From assembly GCA_003599365.1 (NCBI GenBank), contig QZJR01000064.1:1-36612 (forward strand): DNA of 36,612 nucleotides. The letters run 5' to 3'. A model generated the notes under the pieces. The model had not been told where the DNA came from. It did no database searches and was given only the letters and a program-made list of their open reading frames with translations. Below, in pieces: positions 17,958 to 35,344 of this stretch. Every line of letters starts with the position of its first letter. Position 1 is the stretch's first letter. Made by a program: the position numbers and the translations under genes. This stretch comes from Deltaproteobacteria bacterium. Its GTDB lineage: Bacteria; Desulfobacterota; UBA8473.

Positions 17958-20900
17958 TTAGATTAAGCCCTCGCTACAGATGATCTTCGGTATGGTTTGG
18001 TCTTCGGATTTCCGGTTTCGTCGGTCTGACCAATCGCGCATACCGTGTTGATGATAGAGGTCTGTCAACACCCGCATTAGATCTTCTCCCATCATTCCGT
18101 TCCGGCGGATGCGGTTGAGTTCCTTATTGATAGCCGACGTCATCGGCCTGCGAAAAGCCTTTTCAAGTATGTTGATCTGAACTTTCGCATCGTCATCAGT
18201 ACTCAGTCCGAACATTACCCGCAATTCTCGCAGTGCATAACGCTGTCCCTGGGATAGTGACAGGGTATGTTCCAATTCCGATTGTCGTTGTTTGACCGTC
18301 TCTGCAAACCGGCGCTTGACCCGCATGACGGCTTCATTGTATCCGGACGAAAAACCGAGTGCCTCAAGTTCATGTCCACATTTGATAACTCCGAGGATAC
18401 GCGGGATGTCTCTGGATACAATCTCCCCCTTTTCGTTCAATAGAAACAACTGCTGATATCGACCGGCCTGACAGAACACATAAAGCCCTTTTGTTGCCGA
18501 TGGTTTCACGCTACGGATACCGTCCCGCAGATCGGCGATACGGTCATATTCCGCAGGGTTGTCACGACGCAATTGCCGGAGGAGTTCCTCCGCCTCATTG
18601 ATATCCAGAAACTCCTCTTCCTCATCCTCGAACAGGGAAAGCTGGCCGCCCTTCTTTTCGTAAATGGCGTACATGGCTTCCTCGTTAAGCTGTTCAGAGC
18701 GGTCGAGGATAGCCGAATCTTCCCCGATGGTATCGTGGATTTCCTGGATACGGTTGTGGAGTTTCTGACGAAGACCGAGATGCTTGTCAATTCCTGTTTC
18801 GGGAAGAAAGTTAAATCCATACACCACATCGTGCTCGGAGCCTATCCGGTCAATGCGGCCAAACCGTTGAATCAATCGGACCGGATTCCAGTGCAGGTCA
18901 TAGTTGATGATCTTGTCACAGTCCTGAAGGTTCAACCCTTCGGCCAAAACGTCCGTGGCAATGACCATCATCAACTCCTGCTCCCCGGCGGTGAAGCGGT
19001 ATTCCGGGTTTGCCTTTGGCGCGAAACGGCCTACAACCCTGGCCTTGCTCTTGTCTCCGCTGAAGATTACATCAATATCCCGTCGCGTTCCACGTGGGTT
19101 CAGGTTGTCAAACAGGTAGCGAGCCGTATCAGCGTACTGGGTAAAAATCAGCTTCTTGCCGTCCTGAAGCGGCTTTTCGGCAAGTCTTCCGATCAGGGTC
19201 TGAAGCTTGGCATCCCGGTCCGGTGTGACGGGCTCGATTAGCTCCAGCATCCTTTCCAGCAATCGGATATCGTGGGCGATGTGTTCCTTCAGTCTTGGCA
19301 GGTCAAAATCAGCGACGTTGTATTTTCCGGAAACCTGCCTCAGGGCATCCATTAAATCCTGTTCTTCTCCTTGATTCGGTTCGTACAGAATGGCCTGGGC
19401 GTCTTCCCCGGCAGGAACGATCCCCTGTGAGAGGGCTTCCAAGAAATGTCCGTGAACACCCAGCAAACGTCGAACCGTTTCCCGGAAGGCATAAACGCTT
19501 GATTCAAACCGCTTGAAGAGCAGAATCCTAATCAGGCCGCGCAGGTTGGATCCGGCCCGGTGGAGACTGGTGTAAGGCTCCTTTTTTTGCTTCTCCTTCA
19601 TGACATAATGCCACAGACCATACCTGGCATAGGTCAGTTCATTTGGAGGAGGCTTGACCGGTTGTCCTTTGCGTGCCTTTCCAAGATGCTCTCGCAGTTC
19701 ATGATAGAGACCCTGATACGTTTCTTCGATGCTGTATTCAACCGTTCCCAGTTCCCGCTTTGGGAAGAACTGGTGACGCCCTCCCACCATGACGTAGGCC
19801 CGGCGGCGGCCATCCTGATAATCTCTGAACCGAGAGGGATCAATCTGCCGGTGGGTTTCGGAATCAAAACCGTACCACCGCAGGATATGATTTCGTGTCC
19901 GGCGGATCAGCAGGTTCGACAAGAGATCAGGAAGATTCTTTTCCCCTTTTTCAATCATGCGGAAATATTCTTTCAGATTCGGCGGATCGATGGGCAGATC
20001 CGTCTTGTCATCCTGATGGAAGAGCTTCATTTGATAATAGACGTCCCAGGCGCTTTTATTACGGGGAGTGGCGGTGATGAAGCAGCACTTCTTCCCCGTT
20101 TCCAGGAAGGCCTCCACCATCTTGTAACGCTGGGTGTCCGCATAACGGAAATTGTGGCTTTCATCGACAAGCAGAAAGTTTCGATCCCGATAGATAACGT
20201 CTTCTTTCAGAAACTGTGCAGGCCGGTCATCCCGCTCCCTGAGGTATCCCATAGACAGTACCCGGGCATTGAGTTGATACACCTCATTATAACGCTCCCA
20301 CATCTCGACCAGCGTAGCGGGACAGATAATCAGGGGGCGTGCGTGCTCCACTCGTTCGAAGTGTTTGACAATGGCAGCGCCGATATAGGATTTCCCGAGA
20401 CCCACCACATCGGAGACAAAGGCGCCCCCGAAGTCCCGTATGATCTGAACGGCCTGCTTCACGGCAACCTTCTGGAAATCGGCCAGCCTCCGGGTGATCT
20501 CGTCATCCCAGAGGATATCCTGATCCTCACCGCCTTCGATCCGGTCTTTGACCAAGGCGTAGAGGGTCTTCATATAAACGTCATAGGGTCGGACAGGTGC
20601 GATTGCCCAGGATGCCTTCATCTCCTGCATCAGGCTTTCATCGAAATCCTGGGCTTCCTTCCAGAGGTCTTCAAACCACCGGACAAGCTCGGCATGGTTG
20701 TCGTTACCCTGAACAATAACATTGAGTTCCGTGTTGTGAGTGACGCCGGAGAGGGTCAGGTTGGATGAGCCGACAACGGCAATTCCTTCTTCGTGGCGAT
20801 CTACGGAGTTACCGTTCCGATCGTAAACCGTGCCGTAATCGAAGATATAGGCCTTCGCATGGAGACGCCCCCGTGTATAAACCCGCACCCTGAGGCGTTT

Positions 20901-21293
20901 TTCCTCAATCATCTGCACGAGGGATCTGACCAGACTTTCCCCTTCATCGGTCTGGTCCATCAGTTCCATACCGGCCCGGATGCTCCCCGTTGTCTCCGTG
21001 GACATCTGCCTGATGTCGCTCCGTTTCGGATATTGCTCCGCTTCGGCCGCTTCGACGACCATCTCCAGCCGGTGATAGCCTTCGGCCAACTGTTCCAGGG
21101 TTTCCAGGTTGGTCGTATTGCCGATGAGAAGCCGCAATTCCTTGACACGGGAGAGTTTTTCGGAAATAGCCGTCAGGCCGGACAGGAAAAAATAACCTAC
21201 GGCAAAGCGCGCCGCATCGCTGGAATCGAGAATCCGGTTGATGTGATCCACCAGTTTTTCACGACGGTTGTCTATGATGTCATGGGCAGGCAT
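17958..21293 (-). CDS. PLD-nuclease/SNF2-helicase fusion (defence-type)
   Basis: This 1111-aa protein has an N-terminal phospholipase D-like domain with one HKD motif (H145, K147, then GSSNLTLSG at 175-183). A superfamily 2 SNF2-type helicase follows: Walker A DVVGLGKS at 295-302, DESH at 377-380, TATP at 407-410, and a C-terminal lobe with EGLNLQDC and QRFGRIDRIGS near residue 830. The C-terminal 250 residues have an acidic stretch and charged helices of unknown role. Such PLD-helicase fusions are known from anti-phage islands. It is the last gene of a minus-strand series, 14 nt after the RelE-like gene. A functional pairing with the methyltransferase at 25960-29364 is inferred from class and strand, not proven. 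Confidence 0.85.
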   Translation of the reverse strand: MPAHDIIDNRREKLVDHINRILDSSDAARFAVGYFFLSGLTAISEKLSRVKELRLLIGNTTNLETLEQLAEGYHRLEMVVEAAEAEQYPKRSDIRQMSTETTGSIRAGMELMDQTDEGESLVRSLVQMIEEKRLRVRVYTRGRLHAKAYIFDYGTVYDRNGNSVDRHEEGIAVVGSSNLTLSGVTHNTELNVIVQGNDNHAELVRWFEDLWKEAQDFDESLMQEMKASWAIAPVRPYDVYMKTLYALVKDRIEGGEDQDILWDDEITRRLADFQKVAVKQAVQIIRDFGGAFVSDVVGLGKSYIGAAIVKHFERVEHARPLIICPATLVEMWERYNEVYQLNARVLSMGYLRERDDRPAQFLKEDVIYRDRNFLLVDESHNFRYADTQRYKMVEAFLETGKKCCFITATPRNKSAWDVYYQMKLFHQDDKTDLPIDPPNLKEYFRMIEKGEKNLPDLLSNLLIRRTRNHILRWYGFDSETHRQIDPSRFRDYQDGRRRAYVMVGGRHQFFPKRELGTVEYSIEETYQGLYHELREHLGKARKGQPVKPPPNELTYARYGLWHYVMKEKQKKEPYTSLHRAGSNLRGLIRILLFKRFESSVYAFRETVRRLLGVHGHFLEALSQGIVPAGEDAQAILYEPNQGEEQDLMDALRQVSGKYNVADFDLPRLKEHIAHDIRLLERMLELIEPVTPDRDAKLQTLIGRLAEKPLQDGKKLIFTQYADTARYLFDNLNPRGTRRDIDVIFSGDKSKARVVGRFAPKANPEYRFTAGEQELMMVIATDVLAEGLNLQDCDKIINYDLHWNPVRLIQRFGRIDRIGSEHDVVYGFNFLPETGIDKHLGLRQKLHNRIQEIHDTIGEDSAILDRSEQLNEEAMYAIYEKKGGQLSLFEDEEEEFLDINEAEELLRQLRRDNPAEYDRIADLRDGIRSVKPSATKGLYVFCQAGRYQQLFLLNEKGEIVSRDIPRILGVIKCGHELEALGFSSGYNEAVMRVKRRFAETVKQRQSELEHTLSLSQGQRYALRELRVMFGLSTDDDAKVQINILEKAFRRPMTSAINKELNRIRRNGMMGEDLMRVLTDLYHQHGMRDWSDRRNRKSEDQTIPKIICSEGLI

Positions 21294-21307
21294 AGATCAT
21301 CCCTTCC

Positions 21308-21622
21308 TCACTCCGTCAGCCGAAGGCGGAGAAGTTTTTTGGCCAGGGCGTAGATGTCTTTTTTTGCCCCTTCTTTACGAAGGCCGACAGCTACCACGAT
21401 AACGATCACCTTCGCTTTTTCGACCTTGTAGATAATGCGATACCGCTGACCGACGGCACGAACACTCCGGTATCCCGCAAGCTCGCCCAACAGAGCTTTT
21501 CCCTGCTTTTCCGGTTCCTGCCGGAGACGGTCAATGACATCCCTGACCTTTCCTCGGACCCGCCCGTCCGGAATAGCCTGAAGCATCCGTTGCGCCGTCG
21601 GCGTGATGAAAACAGGCCACAT
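21308..21622 (-). CDS. RelE/ParE-family toxin
   Basis: This 104-aa product has the RelE/YoeB fold signature, with basic helices followed by YRSVRAVGQRYRIIYKV (about 51-67), a core strand and a basic C-terminus. Toxins of this family cleave mRNA at the ribosome or, in the ParE branch, poison gyrase; which applies is not clear. The start at 21622 is chosen because its ATG overlaps the antitoxin stop by 1 nt (TGATG). A longer frame upstream is only the antitoxin gene read out of frame. It precedes the helicase gene by 14 nt, so helicase expression may be tied to the toxin-antitoxin promoter. Confidence 0.85.
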   Translation of the reverse strand: MWPVFITPTAQRMLQAIPDGRVRGKVRDVIDRLRQEPEKQGKALLGELAGYRSVRAVGQRYRIIYKVEKAKVIVIVVAVGLRKEGAKKDIYALAKKLLRLRLTE

Positions 21623-21897
21623 CACCGCCCCGCCCCGGCACCGGTTTCTTCCCACGGGATAAGCTGTCCTACTTTCAGCTCCTCTATGCTTTCCCGGAGT
21701 TGCATCATCAATGCCTCGTCCCCCAAAATCTCCAGGGTTTCTTCCAGTGCTTCGTAAAGCTCCCAAGGCATAATGGCCATGACCGGTTTTCCCCGCCTGG
21801 TGACGGCAACAACGTCCAAGTCCGCCTCCTGCTCAAAAAGTTCCGGAATATTCGTCAGTTTTTTTCTTGCTTCAATAATGGATAGGCTTTTCGGCAT
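21622..21897 (-). CDS. Phd/YefM-family antitoxin
   Basis: This 91-aa antitoxin opens with SLSIIEARKKLTNIPELFEQ and continues with VVAVTRRGKPVMAIMPWELYEAL, the usual Phd/YefM DNA-binding fold (about 5-60). An acidic C-terminal tail would wrap the toxin. It would neutralise the RelE-like toxin encoded immediately downstream (1-nt overlap) and repress the operon. GAGGAGG sits just before the ATG. Upstream are a good promoter and a dyad overlapping its -10, as expected for autoregulation. Confidence 0.88.
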   Translation of the reverse strand: MPKSLSIIEARKKLTNIPELFEQEADLDVVAVTRRGKPVMAIMPWELYEALEETLEILGDEALMMQLRESIEELKVGQLIPWEETGAGAGR

Positions 21898-21914
21898 AAA
21901 TCCTCCTCAATCTG

Positions 21915-21953
21915 TACTTTAATAAGTATCTCTTTTCGTACATTCCTTGTCAA
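21915..21953 (-). promoter_or_regulatory. Toxin-antitoxin promoter with overlapping operator dyad
   Basis: On the minus strand, TTGACA (21953-21948), a 17-bp spacer and GATACT (21930-21925) form a promoter. A dyad TACTT-TAAT-AAGTA (21915-21928) overlaps the -10, where a Phd-type antitoxin would be expected to bind. Confidence 0.55.
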
Positions 21954-21995
21954 GGTTTATTTCCTTTTCCGCCGCAATACTAATCCCACCATCCA

Positions 21996-23129
21996 TTAGC
22001 CGGTACAGTTGCAAAACGGTCCTTTTTCCTCCAAACCAACGGTCTTCCAAACCTGCGGCATCTCCTTGCAAAGCGCAATCCGAACCTTACTGTTGCAACG
22101 GCGAATTTCGTCCACAATCGCGCGGAACATCTCGATCCTGTATTCCCTTGGGTATCGCAATTTTCCCGCCTCGGCAATCAGCGAGCCATTCACCTTCAGC
22201 AGGGGTGATTCCGGAAAGCGCGTTTTGATGTGGCTTGAGAGTCCTTCTGCGGGTCGATACTCGCCAATCGTGATCCTCGAAGGCTCGACGTGATCGAAAA
22301 TCATCTCCGTAAGCCTGCGATAATCTTTTTCCCATGTTGAATATCGGACCACGGGATCGATTCGCAAACGTATCTCGTACCCGGCATCTTGAACCTTGCG
22401 TGCCGCTTTTAGCCGGTCCGTTGGTGACGGCGTCCGGTGCTCCAGATGCTGCCATACCGTGTCTGTGTTGACGCTGAACGAAACGATCGTCTGTCCGCCA
22501 TGTTCAATCTCCAGGAGAGTTTTTACGCAGTCGCTCTTGGTCAGGAACAGCAGCTTCGTGTGAGGCGCATGTGCAGGCATAAACGGAACCAATTGCTCCG
22601 ATAATCCGGTGACATCATCCACGGCCAGCGGATCGCCAAGTTCGCCAAGATTCAAAACGCGAAGGGCATCGGGAATCTCTTGCCTGTCAAACTTCTCTAT
22701 GTCTTTAAACATCCTGTCGTAGTTCACAAAGTGCGTTGACACCGGGCAAGTACGAAACGTCAGGTACAGATAACAATACTCGCACCAGAAATTGCAGTTG
22801 TTGTAAGCCGTCAGCTTATAGAACTTCGCGCACCGTCCCAGCGGATGTTGAAACTGTTCGATGAACGGGCTCTTGCGGTCGCGAAGCAACAGGACATTCC
22901 GCTCCTCCATGAGCTTATCCATACCCCGGTCTCCATTGATTTTCGGCAGCGAGGAAAGCCATTTGACCGGCAGTCCCGATCTTTCGGCTATTCGCTGAAC
23001 ATGAGACCGATCCGACTGCCCCTCTACAGCCCACAGTTCCCGCACCAAGGCATGATCCTGCGACATACCTACCGCCGCATACGCCGCCTGCTGTTCACGA
23101 ACCGTATTTTTTGAAATGTTCAGCTTCAC
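21996..23129 (-). CDS. SPL-like radical SAM protein, TcmP partner
   Basis: This 377-aa radical SAM protein resembles spore photoproduct lyases and DNA-repair photolyase-like proteins. The cluster-binding cysteines are C112, C116 and C119 in NCNFWCEYCYLYLTF (CxxxCxxC). The C-terminus has ALCKEMPQVWKTVGL and ends FCNC, both SPL-like. The N-terminal 80 residues are an additional charged region. It starts with GTG overlapping the TcmP stop (GTGA), so the two proteins are translationally coupled and probably act together. The organism need not form spores. Location in a defence island argues for nucleic-acid modification or repair rather than spore UV repair. Substrate unknown. Confidence 0.8.
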   Translation of the reverse strand: MKLNISKNTVREQQAAYAAVGMSQDHALVRELWAVEGQSDRSHVQRIAERSGLPVKWLSSLPKINGDRGMDKLMEERNVLLLRDRKSPFIEQFQHPLGRCAKFYKLTAYNNCNFWCEYCYLYLTFRTCPVSTHFVNYDRMFKDIEKFDRQEIPDALRVLNLGELGDPLAVDDVTGLSEQLVPFMPAHAPHTKLLFLTKSDCVKTLLEIEHGGQTIVSFSVNTDTVWQHLEHRTPSPTDRLKAARKVQDAGYEIRLRIDPVVRYSTWEKDYRRLTEMIFDHVEPSRITIGEYRPAEGLSSHIKTRFPESPLLKVNGSLIAEAGKLRYPREYRIEMFRAIVDEIRRCNSKVRIALCKEMPQVWKTVGLEEKGPFCNCTG

Positions 23130-23986
23130 ATCATTTTCCTGTACTTCTTGAAGATGTCCAATACAACCTTTTGCGCTACCGATTGATGGGAAGCAAAGTA
23201 GAGAAAATACAGGGGGCCTCCTTTGCTGTTTTGCATCAGTATCGGTTCTGGAACAAACTTGAAACCTGCGACCGTCTCGAGTCTATTGCGAAACCACTCG
23301 GCAATTGTTCGATTGTTTCCGATTTTTCCCATTTCACCAAAAAGATCCGGCTGATACATGAGGTCTTTCCAATCTTCCGTGCCGCAGAATTCACTGAATG
23401 CAGCAACATCTGCATCATCTGCATTTGCTAAGTCCTTCCTTAGGGTATTCCGATTGATGTCCATAAGCGGAAAATTAATAAAAATATCTACGGTCCGAAG
23501 ATCGGCCAAATGTTTGATCGTTTGCCAACGAAGCGGCTTGCCGTGTATTCCATAAGGGTCCAATACACACAATCCGCGCCAGTAGGACGAATAAGTAAGA
23601 GAAGGCGCGACTTTATCATAAAGAACTTCGTTGCAGTCCCCAGGCAAAATTTCAACTCGCTTATCGTTCCCGCACAGTGTCTTTAACGATTCAACCTTCT
23701 CCGCATCAATGTCAATCAGAACTATACGATCAAATCGCGGTTCGACGAGAAGAGCATTCAATGGCGACCCCGGCACCATTTCCCGGGTTGTTTTCGAGAA
23801 GTGCATACCAGCCCCGGCAAATGCATCCACATAACAACATCCTCTGCACCATGCTTTTGTTTTAAGAATCCTGGTAAATGCACAGGCATATTCACGCAAA
23901 ATGGCTATTTTGATTTCTGACCAAATTCCGATCTCGTCCAATTTAGCATTGGCTAACTCAGGATATTGATTATCCATTTCTCTCAT
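23126..23986 (-). CDS. tcmP: Three-Cys-motif partner protein (TcmP)
   Basis: This 286-aa protein matches the three-Cys-motif partner family, named for its linkage to a radical-SAM-like CxxxCxxC protein. It has a Rossmann methyltransferase-like order: YVDAFAGAG (52-60), GSPLNAL (73-79), the acidic strand end LIDIDAEK (90-97), GDCNEVL (116-122) and VLDPYG (141-146). NFPLMDINRN follows. A nucleotide- or SAM-binding fold is likely, although the reaction is unknown. The C-terminal 60 residues end in a basic helix. The gene overlaps the downstream radical SAM gene by 4 nt, which is the expected partner. It starts 66 nt after the Shedu gene. Confidence 0.8.
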   Translation of the reverse strand: MREMDNQYPELANAKLDEIGIWSEIKIAILREYACAFTRILKTKAWCRGCCYVDAFAGAGMHFSKTTREMVPGSPLNALLVEPRFDRIVLIDIDAEKVESLKTLCGNDKRVEILPGDCNEVLYDKVAPSLTYSSYWRGLCVLDPYGIHGKPLRWQTIKHLADLRTVDIFINFPLMDINRNTLRKDLANADDADVAAFSEFCGTEDWKDLMYQPDLFGEMGKIGNNRTIAEWFRNRLETVAGFKFVPEPILMQNSKGGPLYFLYFASHQSVAQKVVLDIFKKYRKMM

Positions 23987-24052
23987 TTCCAGCCACCCTC
24001 TAATTGATTCGCAATAAGGCTTCAGGAAAACATACCCGTCCCCTTCTTCCCG

Positions 24053-25279
24053 TTATTGTTCAAGCAATCCCAAGAGTAATTGTATTTTTGAAAATAGCTC
24101 ATCGAAGGTAATGATTTCCACGTTCTTTAGTTCTGATCTGAATATCTCAAAGGATTTTTTTTGGGTATCATTGAGTTGCTCATTTTCAAAGCTTCCAGCT
24201 ATGAGTAAGCATCTTGGATTTATGACCTCGTATTTACATGTTGATGTTGAAGATAAAGCAAGGAAGTTTTTCTCTATTTCTTCTCTGTAGTTAAGAACCT
24301 GATTTATTGAACCTGTCAATTCGGTTGAGATGGAGAATACATTATTCCTATATATAGAAGACAAAAGTTTGGTTGTTGGCGTCTTTATTTCTACAAGCTT
24401 CACATGGGTAGTGATCTGATTCTTGTACAAAAAGTCAACTATGTTACCCCCAGTGTTATCTATAGCCTTGCCGCCTACATAGGCTTTGTCGGTAATAATC
24501 ACGACCGGGTACGAGAAAACCTGCGAAATCACCCACGGATTGGATGTCAATAGATTTTGCCAATATTCCTCTGAGCTGTTTTTCTTCTCGCGATCCCACA
24601 ACTCTATTATCCTTCTAAGATTTATGACCCCAAATACTGAGGAAATCTTGTTCAGATCATCAATACCCAGTTCCATTATTTTTGATAGTACTGGTTCGAC
24701 AAAACCTGTTTCAGCAAGCCATTTTAATAGAGCAACAGCACTGTCTAAATTGACACTAATGTGTGTTTTGTTCTCCACATCCTCAGAAACTGTATCCATC
24801 AATTCAACCAATTGCTTTAATTGAAGCCCTCGTTCAATTGCGCCACTTGCCCATCTACCGACCATTTCTATGGAGAGGCCGCTCTCTATTATTTGAGTAA
24901 CTAACTCTGGATTGTCCATGAAATCTTTAGCAATTGAGCTTTTTGTTAGTGGAATCTGGCATGCACTGGCAAAATAATTCGCAGAGGGATCAAAACTGGG
25001 ATTGTTGAGATAATCTTTGATTTTTACAACCACTGCATAATGAGTTTCTGTCTCGATCGGCATGACCTTTGCGTCATCACGAATGGTTAGAATAAGCGAG
25101 GGCTCTTTTCCTTTTGGGCACTCACTTTTAACACGCTTAGCCAAACATTTTCCATTAGGAAAGGTGGATCTATTATGATTAAAAACTTGCTCCCAATCAA
25201 AGTCAAAATAAACATTAATATAGGCAAGTCTGTCACCGCCGATGAAATTAGAAAGTTCATTATGAAAATTTTCAAACAT
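24053..25279 (-). CDS. sduA: Shedu-family nuclease (DUF4263)
   Basis: This 408-aa protein is a probable SduA-type single-gene anti-phage nuclease. The C-terminal DUF4263 domain (about 235-400) has the PD-(D/E)xK-like set GGNIVDF (D282), VEIKTP (E297, K299) and GSINQVLNYR (Q327), followed by a strand RCLLIAGS. The N-terminal 230 residues are not recognised and probably act as the sensor domain. The gene is clearly more AT-rich than the genes on either side, which suggests it arrived separately. It may be a complete one-gene system inserted among other defence genes. Confidence is good for the domain and moderate for the defence role. Confidence 0.8.
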   Translation of the reverse strand: MFENFHNELSNFIGGDRLAYINVYFDFDWEQVFNHNRSTFPNGKCLAKRVKSECPKGKEPSLILTIRDDAKVMPIETETHYAVVVKIKDYLNNPSFDPSANYFASACQIPLTKSSIAKDFMDNPELVTQIIESGLSIEMVGRWASGAIERGLQLKQLVELMDTVSEDVENKTHISVNLDSAVALLKWLAETGFVEPVLSKIMELGIDDLNKISSVFGVINLRRIIELWDREKKNSSEEYWQNLLTSNPWVISQVFSYPVVIITDKAYVGGKAIDNTGGNIVDFLYKNQITTHVKLVEIKTPTTKLLSSIYRNNVFSISTELTGSINQVLNYREEIEKNFLALSSTSTCKYEVINPRCLLIAGSFENEQLNDTQKKSFEIFRSELKNVEIITFDELFSKIQLLLGLLEQ

Positions 25280-25412: not shown

Positions 25413-25553
25413 CTATTTCGAGGATGATGCACCCTCTACAATCTCAATTTCATCTTCCGTCAGCCCGTAAAGCTCATACACCAACCGGTAGCTATCCTTC
25501 TCCGGCGATGACGTGTCCACAGATTTGGCCACAATAGCTCTGAGCCGTGTCAT
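25413..25553 (-). pseudogene. Detached C-terminal tail of an Eco57I-type methyltransferase
   Basis: A 46-codon minus-strand frame ends with YRLVYELYGLTEDEIEIVEG and a short serine tail. It is a close relative of the last residues of the intact methyltransferase downstream in this window (IYQLYGLTEEEIAIVED). It lies beyond the DUF2283 gene from that methyltransferase. The rest of the protein is absent, so this is the remnant of a second methyltransferase copy, or of a duplication and deletion around the DUF2283 gene. Confidence 0.7.
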
Positions 25554-25576
25554 TTGCCGAATGCAACATCCTCAAT

Positions 25577-25861
25577 TCACGTCCGCGATTTTCTCTTGGC
25601 GCCATACCGGGTCACCTTTTCACGCACAGCCAGAGGCAGTTTCTGACGCTGCCCCAGTGATTCGTTGATGACAATCAGATTGCCGTCGTCCTCCGCTTCA
25701 AGTTGCGCGTTCGCGTTCAACAATTCAATGCCGTATACGGTTCCATCGGGAGCGATGTCCACGTTCATTTCGTCACTCACCCGAATCGTGTCCACCTGCC
25801 CTTTCTTCTCATGCAACCGCAAATAGGCGATGTTGTGTCCCGGATCGTATGTTAGTTTCAT
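25577..25861 (-). CDS. DUF2283-family small protein
   Basis: This 94-aa protein begins KLTYDPGHNIAYLRL and contains VDIAPDGTVYGIELLNA, the hallmark of DUF2283. That family of small beta-rich proteins often sits beside toxin-antitoxin or DUF4258-type genes, and its function is unknown. The final 25 residues are basic. It lies 98 bp after the methyltransferase gene on the same strand and directly upstream of the detached methyltransferase tail. No toxin-like partner is adjacent, and no strong ribosome binding site is seen. Confidence 0.75.
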   Translation of the reverse strand: MKLTYDPGHNIAYLRLHEKKGQVDTIRVSDEMNVDIAPDGTVYGIELLNANAQLEAEDDGNLIVINESLGQRQKLPLAVREKVTRYGAKRKSRT

Positions 25862-25959
25862 AACGACTTATTTCTATTCCGTCGCCCCGCGCTCGGCTCC
25901 GCGCTCCTCTGGATGTTGATGCAGCCGTACATTCATTCGCTGCCCTCTCCGCCCCTCAG

Positions 25960-28900
25960 TTACGATGAATCTTCCACAATCGCAATCTCCTCCTCCGTCA
26001 GCCCGTAAAGCTGGTAGATAACTGTATTAAGTTCCGCAATCAACTCAGATAGTCGGCTCTCATCCCTCTGCTTGTTAGCCAGAGCGCACATCTCAGCGAT
26101 TTGGCGCAGTTCTAGCCTCGCCTCCTTCCTGATGGCTGGCAACCGTATGGCAGACACCATGTCCTTGGAGAAGTTGATGCCACCATCGATCCCCAAACTG
26201 CTGAATGCAGCCCGAAGCAGAAACATGATTAGTCGAGAGTTCATGATTGCACAAATCCACCAGAGATTTCCCACGTCGTCCGACGGATCGAACGCGATAA
26301 TCGTAGATTTTCCGGCAATATAGGAACCATCCGTATCAACGAAGCTGTCAAAATATCGAATGCCCTTGATGATAACCTTCGGTCGCTCGGCCTGCTTTGC
26401 TCGGCGAGGCATGGCTTCTGTGAAGGCGCTCTTGCTTACTACCGGTTTGTCATAATGTGACTTCAGATAGGTCGTCTGTCGTAAACCCCAAAGCGAACCG
26501 AACTTCGCTATTGTACCGGTGTTCGTGAATTTATAGGATTTTCGATGTTGTGAGGACTGACTCTCGTCAAGAAGCGGCGTGAGCTCATAGGCCTCCGTGG
26601 TCGAAAATGGATTCTCGACACTGAAGAGATCTCCAACAGAGTTCGGCATCTTGCCGATCTTATCGAGCAGAGCAATGTGTGGGGACAGCAGATGTCCCCA
26701 GTTCTCATCAGACAGCGCAGATACGCCAACAGAAGCAGAGTGATGGACGTTATAGTTTGCCCAAAACCGGTCGATTTCGACAATGTCCACGAGATCTTTG
26801 GAAATGATGGACACGACGGGTGTGTTTCCTGCCTCAAATACATCAACGCGCGAGCAATCGGCAATAACCTTTAGGTGCCCGCGCAGGAACATTCGCAATG
26901 CCTTACCATATGGTGCCGAGAGCCATTTGTTTGGTGTTATGAATGACAGGAAACCACGAGCACAAAGAAGCATGAAGCTAAGCTCTGTGAACGCAACGTA
27001 GATGTCCCAATTCCCCTTTGTTGTTTCCATTCTCTCTCGAAGGTAGTCACGGAACTCGGGGCAATTACGTTTCATAAGTTCAGAATCAACATACGGCGGA
27101 TTACCAATCACCACATCGAATCCCTCCCGCACGCCGAACATCCACTCCGGGTCGAAGAAAGGGGCGGAGGCGTTCTGGTCGTAGGGGTCCCAGGCGGCGA
27201 GTCGTTTTGCCGTGATGTCACCCCAGCCATCGTGCTTGAGCAGTTCCGCAATTTCGGCACGGAGTTTTTTGTCCAGTTCTCGGCACTTGGCTTTACTGGC
27301 CGGGGTCCTGGCATTGAAGTGCTTCTCCCGCACCTTGCGCAGTTCCGCCTCTTTGGCATCAATATCCGGGTTGCGGAACATCATCTGTTTGGGCTTTTCA
27401 ATACCTATCAGTGTATTAGCGGCGACGAACTTGGTTTCCAGGTTGGGCAGCGGCCTCACGCCGAGGTTTGTTGTGTCCGGGTCCACCCGCTGGTCAACGA
27501 TCAGCGAGATGAAGAACCGCATCTTGGCGATCTGGACGGCAATGGACTGAATGTCAACGCCATAGAGGCAGTTTTCGATCAGGTAGAGCTTGCGTCCGTA
27601 ATCCAGTTCGTTGCGCTCGAACGCCTCCTCGATGCCGACAATTTGTTGCTCCAGTTCCCTGACCGTCCGCTCACGGATGGCAGCATCTTCGATCTTCTCT
27701 GCCGTGACAATGGCGTCGCACACACGCTGGATCTGCCGTTGCTCCCATTGCTCATTACCCGGATCGAGCTTGCCCAGGATGAACACCAGCTTGTGCAAGA
27801 TGCCCATCGGAAAAGCTCCTGACCCCACCGCTGGATCCAACGCCTTCAGTCCGTCAATCGCGGCGATCAGCGCTCCGGTTTCCCGGTTGTCAAAATCGTG
27901 GCCGCTCTCCTCCCACGACACCAGCCGCCGGAGTCTCTTCTCCGCGGCCTCTGCGTTCTCTGTGGAAAAACTTCCCTTCAGGAATGCTATCAATGCCTCG
28001 TCCACCATGTAATCCACGATCTCGCGCGGGGTGTAGAACGAGCCGGTCTGTTTGCGGGCCGTGGCGCCGGTTTCGGGGTTGTAGGCGGCAAGCAGGTTCT
28101 CGAATACCTTGCCGGAGAGCTCCGGATCGAGGGCGACTTCCTGCTCGATGGGCGTGTTTTCCTCAATCGTGAAGCGGTATCGGTGAAGGGTGTGGATGAG
28201 CCCGCGCACCCGGACATTCCTGAATTTCTTGTTACCATAGTCCGCACTGAGGTCTTCCTCGCGCTCAGGTCCGAAGAACAGGAAATCCGGCACAACCGGT
28301 TGGCTGTCCGGCCGTCGGGAGAATCCGTCAATGCGTACATAACGCGGCTTGGCGTTTTCGCCCAAATCCTTGTCCAGACACTCGAATAAGCCGCCGTTGA
28401 GGAACGGGATGTTTTTAAACAGCGCCAGCGCCTCGCCGGGCTTCTTGAATAAATCGCGGTGGCGATAAAGACTGTGCGCCATGAAGTTCTGCTCGTCCTT
28501 TGCCCAGCCGCGCTTCTCCATCTCGGTGTTCAACGTGGCAAAGAAAAGATTCTGCAGGATTGCCTTATAGAAGACGGAATCCTTCCCGGCATTATTGTCC
28601 GGCGCGAACCCGTCGAGCAGTTCATTCAGGCGGCGCTGATTAAACAGCACTTCGGGAATCAGGCCTTTTTCCTTCACGAACCAGCAGAAGATCAACCGTG
28701 TGATCATGCGAATCACACCGATGTGGTCGTGCCCGTCAGCCTCCTTGGGTGCATCCTTGGGGAAGTGAACATGCTTCAGCGCCCAGAAGTACCAGTTGGC
28801 AAGTTCCTTGTAGAACGCCTTGGTGACCGATTCGACATCGAAGGCGTCGTCGTGGCGTTTTTGAATCTCCAGGGCGGGAATGCCGAGCAGCTCTTTCCCG

Positions 28901-29364
28901 AACGACGCAAGATCAAGCATCTGCAGTCGCTCGGCGGCCGTGCGCAAACCGCCGCCGGTCCGCACGGTAATCCGGCGGAACAGCCGCCGCTTCTCAGCCT
29001 TCTCGTCATACTTGATGTTCAGAAAATGCCAGGCGGATTGAGTTATGTCGGAGAAAACAAACAGGCAGTAAGGATGTTCGCGGATCAACTGATCAACGAT
29101 GGGCCGTTCAAGATTTCTCTGAAGGTTTTCTGAGGCCAGGCGGCAATACACCACATGAAACGCATGTTCTTCGCCGCCGCTCGCAAACAGGATGGGATCA
29201 TCGAGCAACGCGTTTCTGGCGGAATCCGGCCAGCCGCGCACGCTGAGCGGCTTGTTTTCGCGCTCGTAATTCAGCTCTGTCCAGAACAATTCTTTCAGGG
29301 CGTTCACGCCCCGCAATTGCTCCAGCAGCTTCAACACAGTCTGCTTGCGGTCAAGAACAGACAT
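25960..29364 (-). CDS. Eco57I-type adenine-specific DNA methyltransferase (restriction-modification)
   Basis: This 1134-aa protein is of the large Eco57I/type IIG-like methyltransferase group. SAM motif I is LDPAVGSGAF (about residue 510), preceded by TGSFYTPREIVDYMVDEA; the catalytic motif IV is NPPY in VVIGNPPYVDS (about 753). These give N6-adenine methylation. The C-terminal third (about 860-1110) would be the target-recognition region. The N-terminal 450 residues resemble the accessory part of such enzymes found beside helicases. I could not identify a nuclease active site there, so cleavage may need a partner such as the PLD-SNF2 helicase. It is the first gene of the minus-strand island. 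Confidence 0.87.
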   Translation of the reverse strand: MSVLDRKQTVLKLLEQLRGVNALKELFWTELNYERENKPLSVRGWPDSARNALLDDPILFASGGEEHAFHVVYCRLASENLQRNLERPIVDQLIREHPYCLFVFSDITQSAWHFLNIKYDEKAEKRRLFRRITVRTGGGLRTAAERLQMLDLASFGKELLGIPALEIQKRHDDAFDVESVTKAFYKELANWYFWALKHVHFPKDAPKEADGHDHIGVIRMITRLIFCWFVKEKGLIPEVLFNQRRLNELLDGFAPDNNAGKDSVFYKAILQNLFFATLNTEMEKRGWAKDEQNFMAHSLYRHRDLFKKPGEALALFKNIPFLNGGLFECLDKDLGENAKPRYVRIDGFSRRPDSQPVVPDFLFFGPEREEDLSADYGNKKFRNVRVRGLIHTLHRYRFTIEENTPIEQEVALDPELSGKVFENLLAAYNPETGATARKQTGSFYTPREIVDYMVDEALIAFLKGSFSTENAEAAEKRLRRLVSWEESGHDFDNRETGALIAAIDGLKALDPAVGSGAFPMGILHKLVFILGKLDPGNEQWEQRQIQRVCDAIVTAEKIEDAAIRERTVRELEQQIVGIEEAFERNELDYGRKLYLIENCLYGVDIQSIAVQIAKMRFFISLIVDQRVDPDTTNLGVRPLPNLETKFVAANTLIGIEKPKQMMFRNPDIDAKEAELRKVREKHFNARTPASKAKCRELDKKLRAEIAELLKHDGWGDITAKRLAAWDPYDQNASAPFFDPEWMFGVREGFDVVIGNPPYVDSELMKRNCPEFRDYLRERMETTKGNWDIYVAFTELSFMLLCARGFLSFITPNKWLSAPYGKALRMFLRGHLKVIADCSRVDVFEAGNTPVVSIISKDLVDIVEIDRFWANYNVHHSASVGVSALSDENWGHLLSPHIALLDKIGKMPNSVGDLFSVENPFSTTEAYELTPLLDESQSSQHRKSYKFTNTGTIAKFGSLWGLRQTTYLKSHYDKPVVSKSAFTEAMPRRAKQAERPKVIIKGIRYFDSFVDTDGSYIAGKSTIIAFDPSDDVGNLWWICAIMNSRLIMFLLRAAFSSLGIDGGINFSKDMVSAIRLPAIRKEARLELRQIAEMCALANKQRDESRLSELIAELNTVIYQLYGLTEEEIAIVEDSS

Positions 29365-32637: not shown

Positions 32638-33044
32638 TTTACCTCCTTATAGAATATAGTCAAAAATCAAAAGTCGAAAATCAGGAAAAGTAATTCAGAA
32701 GTTGTTAAATACGAGTAAATACGAATAAAGAGAAAAACCCGTTCCAAATTTACCAAATATCGATTAATCTACTAGTTAACAAATTGGTAACAATGTGTCA
32801 AATAATTTAAACAGTTTATCCTGAAAAGTAAAATTTTTGTGCTACCACACAGGGTATCCAGTGTTGTTTCTTTATGAAAATTTTTTTCTTGAAAAAGGCA
32901 TATTTATGGGGTAGTGTTTTTGAAATGGTGTTTTCGCTAACTGTTTTGCTGACAAACAAAAAATATCCAATTCATAGACAGATTTAAGGGGCAGCCTTGT
33001 CCCTTTATCTTCATTGAAAGAAATTAACTTGAAAGGAAGATACT
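32638..33044. promoter_or_regulatory. Divergent intergenic region (oxidoreductase operon / dehydrogenases)
   Basis: This AT-rich 407-bp region separates two divergent metabolic operons and has no ORF of note. Short 10-bp tandem repeats TAAATACGAG and TAAATACGAA occupy 32706-32725. A weak plus-strand promoter, TTGAAA (32889-32894), 17-bp spacer, TAGTGT (32912-32917), would serve the dehydrogenases. A shared regulator site is plausible here but not identified. Confidence 0.35.
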
Positions 33045-34193
33045 ATGCAAGCACGGTTCTACAAAGAAGAGCACCAAATTTTTCGTAAGGCTTTCAGGGA
33101 TTTTGTCAATAAGGAAATTAAACCTAATGCTGAAAAGTGGGAGCATGAAAAGGGAATTCCCAGGGATTTATGGCATAAGGTGGGTGAACAAGGGTATTTA
33201 TGCCCATGGGTTGATGAGAAATACGGAGGTTCCGGGGTCGGGTTTGAATACTCGGTGATTATCCACGAAGAGCTGTGCCGGTCTGAGAACACAGGTGTGC
33301 TGGGAATGGGTGTGCATAGCGACATTGTTGTTCCGTACATTGATCACCATGGAGATGAAAGACAAAAAGAGAAGTATCTCCCCGGATGCGCCAACGGGGA
33401 TATTATCACCTCTGTGGCAATGAGCGAACCGGAGGCCGGTTCTGACCTTGTCAGAATACAAACCAAGGCAATCAGGGACGGCAATGACTACATCGTTAAC
33501 GGACAGAAGGTTTTTATTACCAATGGTATCCACTGCGATCTGGCGATAGTGGCCGTAAAAACAGACCCAAAGGCGGACCCTCTTCACAAAGGCATTAGCA
33601 TACTTCTTGTTGAAAACGGGACCCCCGGGTTTTCCAAAGGCCGCAGTCTCGAAAAGACGGGCGCTCACAGTCAGGATACCGGAGAGCTATTCTTCGAGGA
33701 TTGTCGAGTGCCTCAGGAAAATCTGCTTGGTGAAGAAGGTGAAGGGTTCAAGTATCTGATGTACAACCTGCAACAGGAGCGTCTGGTCATGACGATGGAT
33801 GCCCAGGCTGTCGCGGAATACGTTCTGGAAAAAACCATCGAATATTGTAAGGTGCGGAATGTCTTTGGGCGTCCCGTTAGCAGATTTCAGCACAACACGT
33901 TTAAGATTGTTGAAATGGCTACCGAGGTCGAAATGGGTAGAGTCTTCTTCAATTCCCTCGTCGAAGATTTTATTAACGGAGTAGACATTACCCTGAAGGT
34001 GTCAATGGCCAAGTGGTGGATAACCGAGATGGCAAATCGCATTGCTTACCAGTGTACCCAGCTCCATGGAGGGTACGGGTGCATGAAAGAGTACTATGTT
34101 GCCAGGGCGTCGGGAGATGTCCGCTCTATGACCATCGCTGCCGGCACGAGTGAAATAATGAAGATTGTCATAGGAAGAATGATGGGGTTGTAG
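33045..34193 (+). CDS. Acyl-CoA dehydrogenase, tandem copy 1
   Basis: This 382-aa FAD enzyme oxidises an acyl-CoA to the 2,3-enoyl-CoA and passes electrons to ETF or an equivalent. AMSEPEAGSDL (125-135) is the flavin/substrate signature; HGGYGCMKEYYVAR (341-354) and GTSEIMK (367-373) are C-terminal family motifs. The Glu used by medium- and short-chain enzymes (YEGT) is replaced by Ala (AAGT). A Glu is present in QQERL (E245), the position used by isovaleryl-CoA and long-chain dehydrogenases, so it is probably active and of that class. AAAGGAAG precedes the ATG. It is followed 2 nt later by a near-identical copy. Confidence 0.92.
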   Translation: MQARFYKEEHQIFRKAFRDFVNKEIKPNAEKWEHEKGIPRDLWHKVGEQGYLCPWVDEKYGGSGVGFEYSVIIHEELCRSENTGVLGMGVHSDIVVPYIDHHGDERQKEKYLPGCANGDIITSVAMSEPEAGSDLVRIQTKAIRDGNDYIVNGQKVFITNGIHCDLAIVAVKTDPKADPLHKGISILLVENGTPGFSKGRSLEKTGAHSQDTGELFFEDCRVPQENLLGEEGEGFKYLMYNLQQERLVMTMDAQAVAEYVLEKTIEYCKVRNVFGRPVSRFQHNTFKIVEMATEVEMGRVFFNSLVEDFINGVDITLKVSMAKWWITEMANRIAYQCTQLHGGYGCMKEYYVARASGDVRSMTIAAGTSEIMKIVIGRMMGL

Positions 34194-34195
34194 GG

Positions 34196-35344
34196 ATGGA
34201 AGCACGATTTTACAAGGAAGAGCACCACATCTTCCGTAAGGCTTTTAGGGATTTTGTCCATAAGGAAATCAAACCCTACGCGGAAAAGTGGGATGACGAG
34301 AAGAAAATCCCCAGGGAAATATGGCATAAGATGGGTAACCAAGGGTATCTATGTCCATGGCTCGATGAGAAGTACGGCGGTTCCGGGGTCGGGTTTGAAT
34401 ACTCGGTGATTATCCACGAAGAGCTGTGCCGTTCTGAGAACACAGGTGTGCTGGGGATGGGTGTCCATAGCGACATTATTGTTCCGTACATTGATCACCA
34501 TGGAGATCAAAGACAAAAAGAGAAATATCTCCCAGGATGCGCCAACGGGGAGATCATTACCTCTATCGTCATGAGCGAACCAGGGGCCGGATCTGACCTT
34601 GCCGCTATCCGTACCAAGGCTATCAGGGACGGCAATGACTATATTGTGAATGGCCAGAAGGTTTTCATTACCAATGGTATCAGCTGTGACCTGGCCATAG
34701 TGGCCGTAAAAACAGACCCAAAAGCGGATCCTCCATACAAGGGGATCAGCATACTTCTCATTGAAGACGGTACCCCTGGGTTTTCCAAAGGCCGCAGTCT
34801 CGAAAAGACGGGTACCCACAGTCAGGATACAGGGGAGCTGTTCTTTGAGGATTGTCGGGTACCTCAAGAGAACCTGCTGGGCGAGGAAGGTGAGGGGTTT
34901 CGGTACCTCATGTACAACCTGCAGCAAGAGCGTTTAGCCCTCACCATCGACGCCCAGGCTACAGCCGAATATGCTCTAGAGAAAACTATCGAGTATTGTA
35001 AGACAAGAAATGTATTTGGACGTTGTGTGAGCGAGTTTCAACACAATACATTCAAGATCGTGGAGATGGCTACTGAGGTCGAAATTGGTAGGGTTTTTCT
35101 TAATTCCCTCATCAAAGATTTTATTGATGGGAAAGATATTACCCTGAAGGTATCGATGGCCAAGTGGTGGATACCGGAGATGGCCAATCGGCTTGCCTAT
35201 CACTGTACACAACTCCACGGAGGATACGGATGCATGAAGGAGTATTATGTTGCAAGGGTGCCAGGAGATCTCCGTTCCCTGGCTATTGCCGGCGGCGCCA
35301 CTGAAGTGATGAAGGTTGTCATAGGAAGGATGATGGGCTTGTGA
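34196..35344 (+). CDS. Acyl-CoA dehydrogenase, tandem copy 2
   Basis: This is a second 382-aa acyl-CoA dehydrogenase, same length and roughly 85% identical to copy 1 by eye, with no insertions or deletions. It keeps E245 in QQERL and HGGYGCMKEYY. It differs in the C-terminal block (GGATEVMK against AGTSEIMK) and the flavin signature (MSEPGAGSDL). These changes could alter chain length or make the pair a heteromer. The ATG is 2 nt after the stop of copy 1, so they are co-translated. The stop is 15 nt from the convergent MBL gene. An isovaleryl/branched-chain role is inferred from the VOR-type operon nearby. Confidence 0.92.
   Translation: MEARFYKEEHHIFRKAFRDFVHKEIKPYAEKWDDEKKIPREIWHKMGNQGYLCPWLDEKYGGSGVGFEYSVIIHEELCRSENTGVLGMGVHSDIIVPYIDHHGDQRQKEKYLPGCANGEIITSIVMSEPGAGSDLAAIRTKAIRDGNDYIVNGQKVFITNGISCDLAIVAVKTDPKADPPYKGISILLIEDGTPGFSKGRSLEKTGTHSQDTGELFFEDCRVPQENLLGEEGEGFRYLMYNLQQERLALTIDAQATAEYALEKTIEYCKTRNVFGRCVSEFQHNTFKIVEMATEVEIGRVFLNSLIKDFIDGKDITLKVSMAKWWIPEMANRLAYHCTQLHGGYGCMKEYYVARVPGDLRSLAIAGGATEVMKVVIGRMMGL

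Follow-up and report, generated by a model that had tools for sequence, protein, structure and literature searches.

The window, i.e. the whole stretch of 36,612 nucleotides that was analysed, carries on its reverse strand an intact adenine methyltransferase (MTase) gene of the Eco57I family (25960-29364, 1134 aa), which is type IIG/PglX-like as judged from Pfam (Eco57I, E = 4.6e-34) and PADLOC. Downstream of this gene and on the same strand follow a DUF4258 remnant (25877-25936, MNVRLHQHPEERGAERGATE), an intact DUF2283 gene (25577-25861; Pfam PF10049, E = 3.6e-11), an open reading frame of 46 aa (25413-25553, MTRLRAIVAKSVDTSSPEKDSYRLVYELYGLTEDEIEIVEGASSSK) and, directly beyond it, a Shedu SduA gene (24053-25279). 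The DUF2283 gene is thus enclosed by the short frame and the MTase gene. The DUF4258/DUF2283 module is incomplete in the window, i.e. DUF2283 is intact and DUF4258 is cut to its first 20 codons with ~215 bp deleted; in another relative, G002, DUF2283 is kept as well and the DUF4258 gene has its full length (82 aa). DUF4258 is probably the toxin of this cassette, and the pairing of the two genes makes DUF2283 its probable antitoxin partner.

The region downstream of the MTase gene (17958-25279) is a dense defence neighbourhood with Shedu SduA, a TcmP-like protein, an SPL-like radical SAM protein, Phd with RelE/ParE and a PLD-Snf2 helicase, and its gene content between MTase and SPL is different in each of the four genomes compared. 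Elsewhere in the window, at 32763-35342, two adjoining stretches may have arisen by tandem duplication, as both align to a single acyl-CoA dehydrogenase-like gene of G002 (at 94% and 82%).

The original prediction held that the short frame repeats the C-terminus of the MTase on the other side of the DUF2283 gene, and this is well supported. The two proteins are 65% identical over 20 aligned residues with a local score of 71 (shuffled maximum 49, n = 1000), and the DNA aligns over 49 bp with 82% identity and a score of 58 (shuffled maximum 29, n = 500), an identical 19-bp run, AGCTTTACGGGCTGACGGA, being common to the fragment and the MTase end. For the protein similarity, tblastn within the window gives E = 6e-6, and chance similarity was rejected by the shuffles. 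The proposed comparison with Eco57I-type enzymes gave a match as well, as residues 10-44 of the fragment correspond to the last 30-35 positions of the PADLOC REase_MTase_IIG profiles (E = 1.5e-5), so that the upstream half of the fragment belongs to the MTase-tail family, too. A hidden Markov model (HMM) of the tail finds exactly two tails in the window (scores 55 and 31), whereas three shuffled windows contain none; we refer to the MTase end as tail 1 and to the fragment as tail 2 or orphan tail. A likeness by eye between the orphan tail and an out-of-frame stretch of the Shedu gene at ~24540-24585 was taken as chance, and the tail HMM has no match there.

The frame of the window's orphan tail is free of stops. 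Homologous fragments in other genomes often carry in-frame stops (e.g. G003:C87:31406, G132:C1:232080, G126:C130:2745), and as these are so many the window's orphan tail need not be translated. It is conceivable that orphan tails are kept as small expressed proteins, e.g. as peptide competitors of the MTase C-terminus for a partner, since many of them, the window's included, keep an open frame; yet these stops, the finding that some orphans are only half a tail, and a mosaic pattern that follows the neighbouring cassettes (see below) render this idea highly improbable.

The origin of the fragment emerges from genomes of the same genus, the assemblies of which are fragmentary metagenome-assembled genomes. 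In G001 and G003 the same locus is found with an MTase gene, variable genes and the SPL-like gene (in G003 the helicase is visible, too), but the MTase has a single tail and there is no DUF4258-DUF2283 pair. G002 shares the block 25432-26012 with the window in two pieces of 92% and 90% DNA identity (92% for the DUF2283 gene), and identity stops inside both tails, i.e. at 26012 in tail 1. The DUF4258-DUF2283 cassette of G002, 90-92% identical to the window's, is located inside the MTase tail: in a six-way alignment, tail 1 of G002 is native in its 5' half and cassette-derived in its 3' half (GAAGATTCATCG...). In tail 2 it is the 5' half that comes from the cassette, whereas the 3' half and the flank beyond it (GAGAGAATGAAATTTTACAAATATG...) are native; this stretch is 91% identical to G003 over 120 bp. 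The G002 fragment thus bears the 3' flank that is native to the MTase where it is single-copy (G001 and G003). The cassette therefore entered the tail, and the orphan is the displaced native end of one gene. Moreover, the arrangement amounts to a long direct repeat of the target around an insert, with the site occupied in G002 and empty in G001 and G003.

Tail 2 of G002 is the counterpart of the orphan tail in the window, which occupies the same place. Thus, the 3' half and stop codon of the window's tail 1 (25960-26012) would be derived from the cassette, and in tail 2 the 5' part would come from the cassette, with the 3' part lying where the displaced native MTase end is expected. The native MTase 3' flank was looked for elsewhere in the window and is absent, so that for the window the insertion is deduced through G002. 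As the 3' half of the window's tail 2 is of another type than the native one, at least one further exchange would have followed the insertion, possibly tied to the arrival of Shedu and TcmP; at this position the Shedu gene replaces other genes that are found there in G001, G002 and G003. A search on whether Shedu might itself be a further tail-bounded cassette yielded no informative relatives. At the level of sequence, the comparison demonstrates empty (G001, G003) and occupied (G002) sites, a reciprocal exchange of tail halves in G002 and the same cassette in the window. Taken together, we consider it very probable that the orphan tail is the right-hand half-site that remained when a cassette inserted into the coding sequence at the 3' end of the MTase gene.

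The fragment is not an isolated case. A search of 148 relatives with the orphan-tail fragment yielded many short frames with the same tail, often several per contig and downstream of a full MTase, and a profile search agreed with this across 394 genomes of the phylum. Beyond the phylum, 80 loci from many phyla, obtained in one genome-collection scan, were sorted by the tail HMM; several tails lie near contig ends, and those flagged for this were left out of the orphan count. Furthermore, 58 full-length MTases from many phyla were cut into 45-residue windows, the recurrence of which was scored downstream and by strand. For 14 of the 58, the C-terminal window is found again downstream in the same orientation, a fraction that is no estimate of prevalence, the seed loci having been chosen by tail conservation and related loci not being independent. 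Every other window recurs 0 or 1 times on the same strand, recurrence on the opposite strand is 0, and for other genes of ≥300 aa at the same loci the C-terminus is repeated downstream in 1 of 303 cases. According to protein alignments the repeat mostly comprises the last 23-71 residues, usually up to or near the stop codon, with two longer alignments of 132 and 140 residues, and most orphan tails stand after unrelated cargo genes. Orphan tails downstream of such MTases are hence a class that spans many phyla.

These data also bear on the source that was originally proposed for the fragment, namely a second full-length MTase that once lay beyond DUF2283 and is now deleted. The homology of the fragment to MTase C-termini and the exchange of MTase bodies at the window locus (see below) would be in line with such debris, and at locus L034 (5572-9028) an intact MTase with a divergent tail overlaps with its end, by ~16 bp, an orphan tail of the common type, as if the whole MTase had been replaced and the old tail left behind; whole-gene replacement can thus leave a tail. 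However, parts of the MTase other than the last 45 residues essentially never recur downstream, the repeat usually ends at the stop codon and most orphans follow unrelated cargo, and random decay of whole copies would not leave only C-termini. Likewise, G001 and G003 are single-tailed and the orphan of G002 carries the native flank of a single-copy gene. With empty sites at hand as well, we regard a deleted second MTase as improbable and favour the displacement of the end of one gene by a cassette.

The suggestion that specificity alleles were exchanged by recombination, by contrast, is borne out by the MTase body. In every block of 50 residues up to about residue 750, the MTase of the window has 90-100% identity to that of G003 (~95% over these 750 residues; 92% at the DNA level up to about codon 759), whereas the specificity half beyond is unrelated up to the tail, with 10-36% identity per block and 44% in the last, tail-containing block. 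The right-hand joint of this exchange lies in the tail as well, because everything beyond the tail matches G002 instead.

Arrays of tails occur in Pseudanabaena, where tails are present in 17 of 26 genomes. In one array (L151, of Pseudanabaena sp. FACHB-1998) the cargo between the tails comprises antitoxin and PIN, DUF433, antitoxin and RelE, nucleotidyltransferase and HEPN, and similar genes. Eight aligned tails of this array show their two halves in all four combinations, and in a four-gamete test 414 of 1035 site pairs are incompatible (Rm = 7). Altogether, 15 tail-punctuated arrays contain 53 cassettes, mostly toxin-antitoxin, from 10 families and in varying order, i.e. they consist of small co-oriented cassettes that have been reshuffled and are separated by one repeated site. 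In these related arrays, the cassettes of which are not fully independent, the cassette family predicts the 3'-half type of the preceding tail in 50 of 52 cases (expected 35.9; reached in 0 of 5000 shuffles). It does not predict the type of the following tail (35 of 46; expected 33.3; 1023 of 5000 shuffles). Columns 1-28 of the tail alignment show linkage mainly with the preceding cassette, the 43 columns that follow with essentially neither neighbour, and nearly all columns after this 43-bp zone with the following cassette. Therefore, the mobile unit runs from tail core to tail core, with the crossover zone inside the coding end of the MTase. As several of the arrays are on contigs of 4-5 Mb, they are not explained by assembly edges.

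Across the loci, Pfam and PADLOC identify PIN, RelE, HigB, Gp49, BrnT, HEPN/nucleotidyltransferase, Fic, AbiH and AbiJ among the cargo, and further SIR2, TIR/ThsB, AAA-15/21, RhuM, DUF1016 and DUF4238. The cargo thus appears rich in toxin-antitoxin and defence genes, and some of it carries no identification. No recombinase or integrase, and thus no element-encoded integrase between duplicated MTase ends, was recognised among the scanned cargo proteins (25 of 55 Pfam families listed; most larger proteins scanned singly), and Rfam gave no match on four array loci. A phage or plasmid vehicle was considered and rejected (0 phage records, 3 plasmid records and 15 viral contigs).

Several known systems resemble the MTase-tail cassettes. 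Integron arrays, including the CALINs, i.e. clusters of attC sites that lack an integrase, are built of units that run from site core to site core. The MTase-tail arrays have in common with them small co-oriented cassettes, many of them toxin-antitoxin, with a repeated recombination site in between, a cassette order that varies between genomes and a unit that extends from core to core. However, the place of attC is taken by the 3' end of an MTase coding sequence, the tails lack a consistent hairpin, and there is no integron integrase at the arrays, several carriers having none over the cut-off at all. In E. coli, the prophage e14 restores the 3' end of its target icd upon insertion and leaves the old end as the orphan icdC. 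The MTase cassette likewise restores the 3' end of its target and orphans the old one, but neither a prophage nor an integrase or att site was seen in the cassettes, whose units are stacked and comprise one gene or a few. Insertion with long target duplication was described in Helicobacter pylori (Nobusato et al. 2000, via PMC1643837 and PMC3031569), restriction-modification genes being reported as the insert. It resembles the present case in its long direct target repeats, the comparison with empty sites and the link to restriction-modification; unlike there, the MTase 3' end is a recurrent target, the insert is toxin-antitoxin or defence cargo rather than restriction-modification genes, and insertions are stacked and shuffled. 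Finally, orphan cdiA-CT/cdiI and rhs-CT modules have a variable toxin with its immunity gene as the displaced 3' end (PMC4927057). In both cases, 3' ends displaced from a large gene are found downstream of it in unchanged orientation, as tandem arrays that can recombine with the parent; the displaced MTase piece, however, is a conserved tail instead of a toxin domain with an immunity gene, with cargo between the tails that does not depend on the MTase. Each of these systems shares part of the anatomy and fails in at least one of the features tested. No description of MTase-tail cassettes was found among the open-access papers searched.

Based on our findings we propose that a small defence cassette, here the toxin-antitoxin-like DUF4258-DUF2283 pair, which bears MTase-tail sequence at both ends, would insert into the 3' coding end of an MTase gene by recombining within the short conserved tail. 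The MTase would receive a new 3' half and stop codon from the cassette, keeping the gene open, and its old 3' half would be displaced downstream as an orphan, i.e. the right-hand half-site. The agent may be ordinary homologous recombination, either as a double crossover with tail-flanked donor DNA or as the insertion of a one-tail circle. Insertion at the tail would be tolerated because the MTase is regenerated, which is probably the reason why selection made the tail the site, and the cargo would provide addiction or phage defence.

We infer homologous recombination between tails rather than a dedicated recombinase because the crossovers are spread over 43 bp, because the array carriers G408, G417, G420 and G132 have no integron integrase over the cut-off and because the tails lack consistent attC-like folding. 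A site-specific recombinase acting in trans, e.g. an integron integrase that inserts cassettes at the tail and makes the arrays unusual integrons, has some appeal in view of their one-orientation runs of small toxin-antitoxin cassettes, of integron integrase genes over the cut-off in G000, G003, G004, G430 and G435, on other contigs or far away, and of hairpin repeats beside the tails of L033 and L035. Nevertheless, we deem it unlikely: the exchange zone spans 43 bp instead of a single point, no recombinase was recognised in the scanned cargo, and G002, like the four carriers named above, lacks an integrase over the cut-off, with the reservation that drafts may be incomplete. On the array contigs, TIGR02249 has no match over the cut-off except on G430:C1, ~490 kb from its array. 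Moreover, folding of eight tails is not unusual and not consistently attC-like (folding z-scores from -2.6 to +1.9). The hairpin repeat is a paired one of ~110 bp (AACAGACAGCTTCAGCTGTCTGT ... CAATGGGCTAAAGCCCATTG), found in G003 and G004 behind several tails and cargo genes. It was noted at L033 and L035, of the same genus as the window, as well as at G000:C49 and G002:C190, with copies confined to one contig per genome, and in L033/L035 it might be the true recombination element.

There is little explanation so far of how defence islands build up their anti-phage and toxin-antitoxin modules. A conserved coding end with a second role as recombination joint offers a concrete and testable route for their growth, as cargo can be added at the tail without killing the MTase and the same joint permits specificity exchange. 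The window fragment looks like a displaced gene end in a widespread cassette system. We would give roughly even chances to the general notion that, in many bacterial phyla, type IIG-like MTase loci serve as natural platforms for cassettes and do so without a dedicated integrase. The conserved 3' coding end would then be the exchange site for the capture, stacking and shuffling of toxin-antitoxin and anti-phage cassettes as well as for the swapping of MTase specificity halves. MTase tails outside of MTase genes may thus serve as a search key for defence cassettes, including uncharacterised genes between tails.

Tails also occur in a few other arrangements. In L032 (G002:C13, 5121-5349) the first codons of the G002 MTase are joined to a tail; nearly the whole gene appears to have been deleted internally, although this could be an assembly effect. 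L085 (9318-9692) has three tandem tails with a spacing of 123 bp and no cargo, the unit being bounded by an inverted repeat, TAATTTCGAC...GTCGAAATTA, that is perhaps a terminator. In L111 (6282-7289) an orphan tail follows a short piece of a specificity domain and adjoins a serine recombinase-like gene on the opposite strand, and this is possibly a phase-variable locus of another kind.
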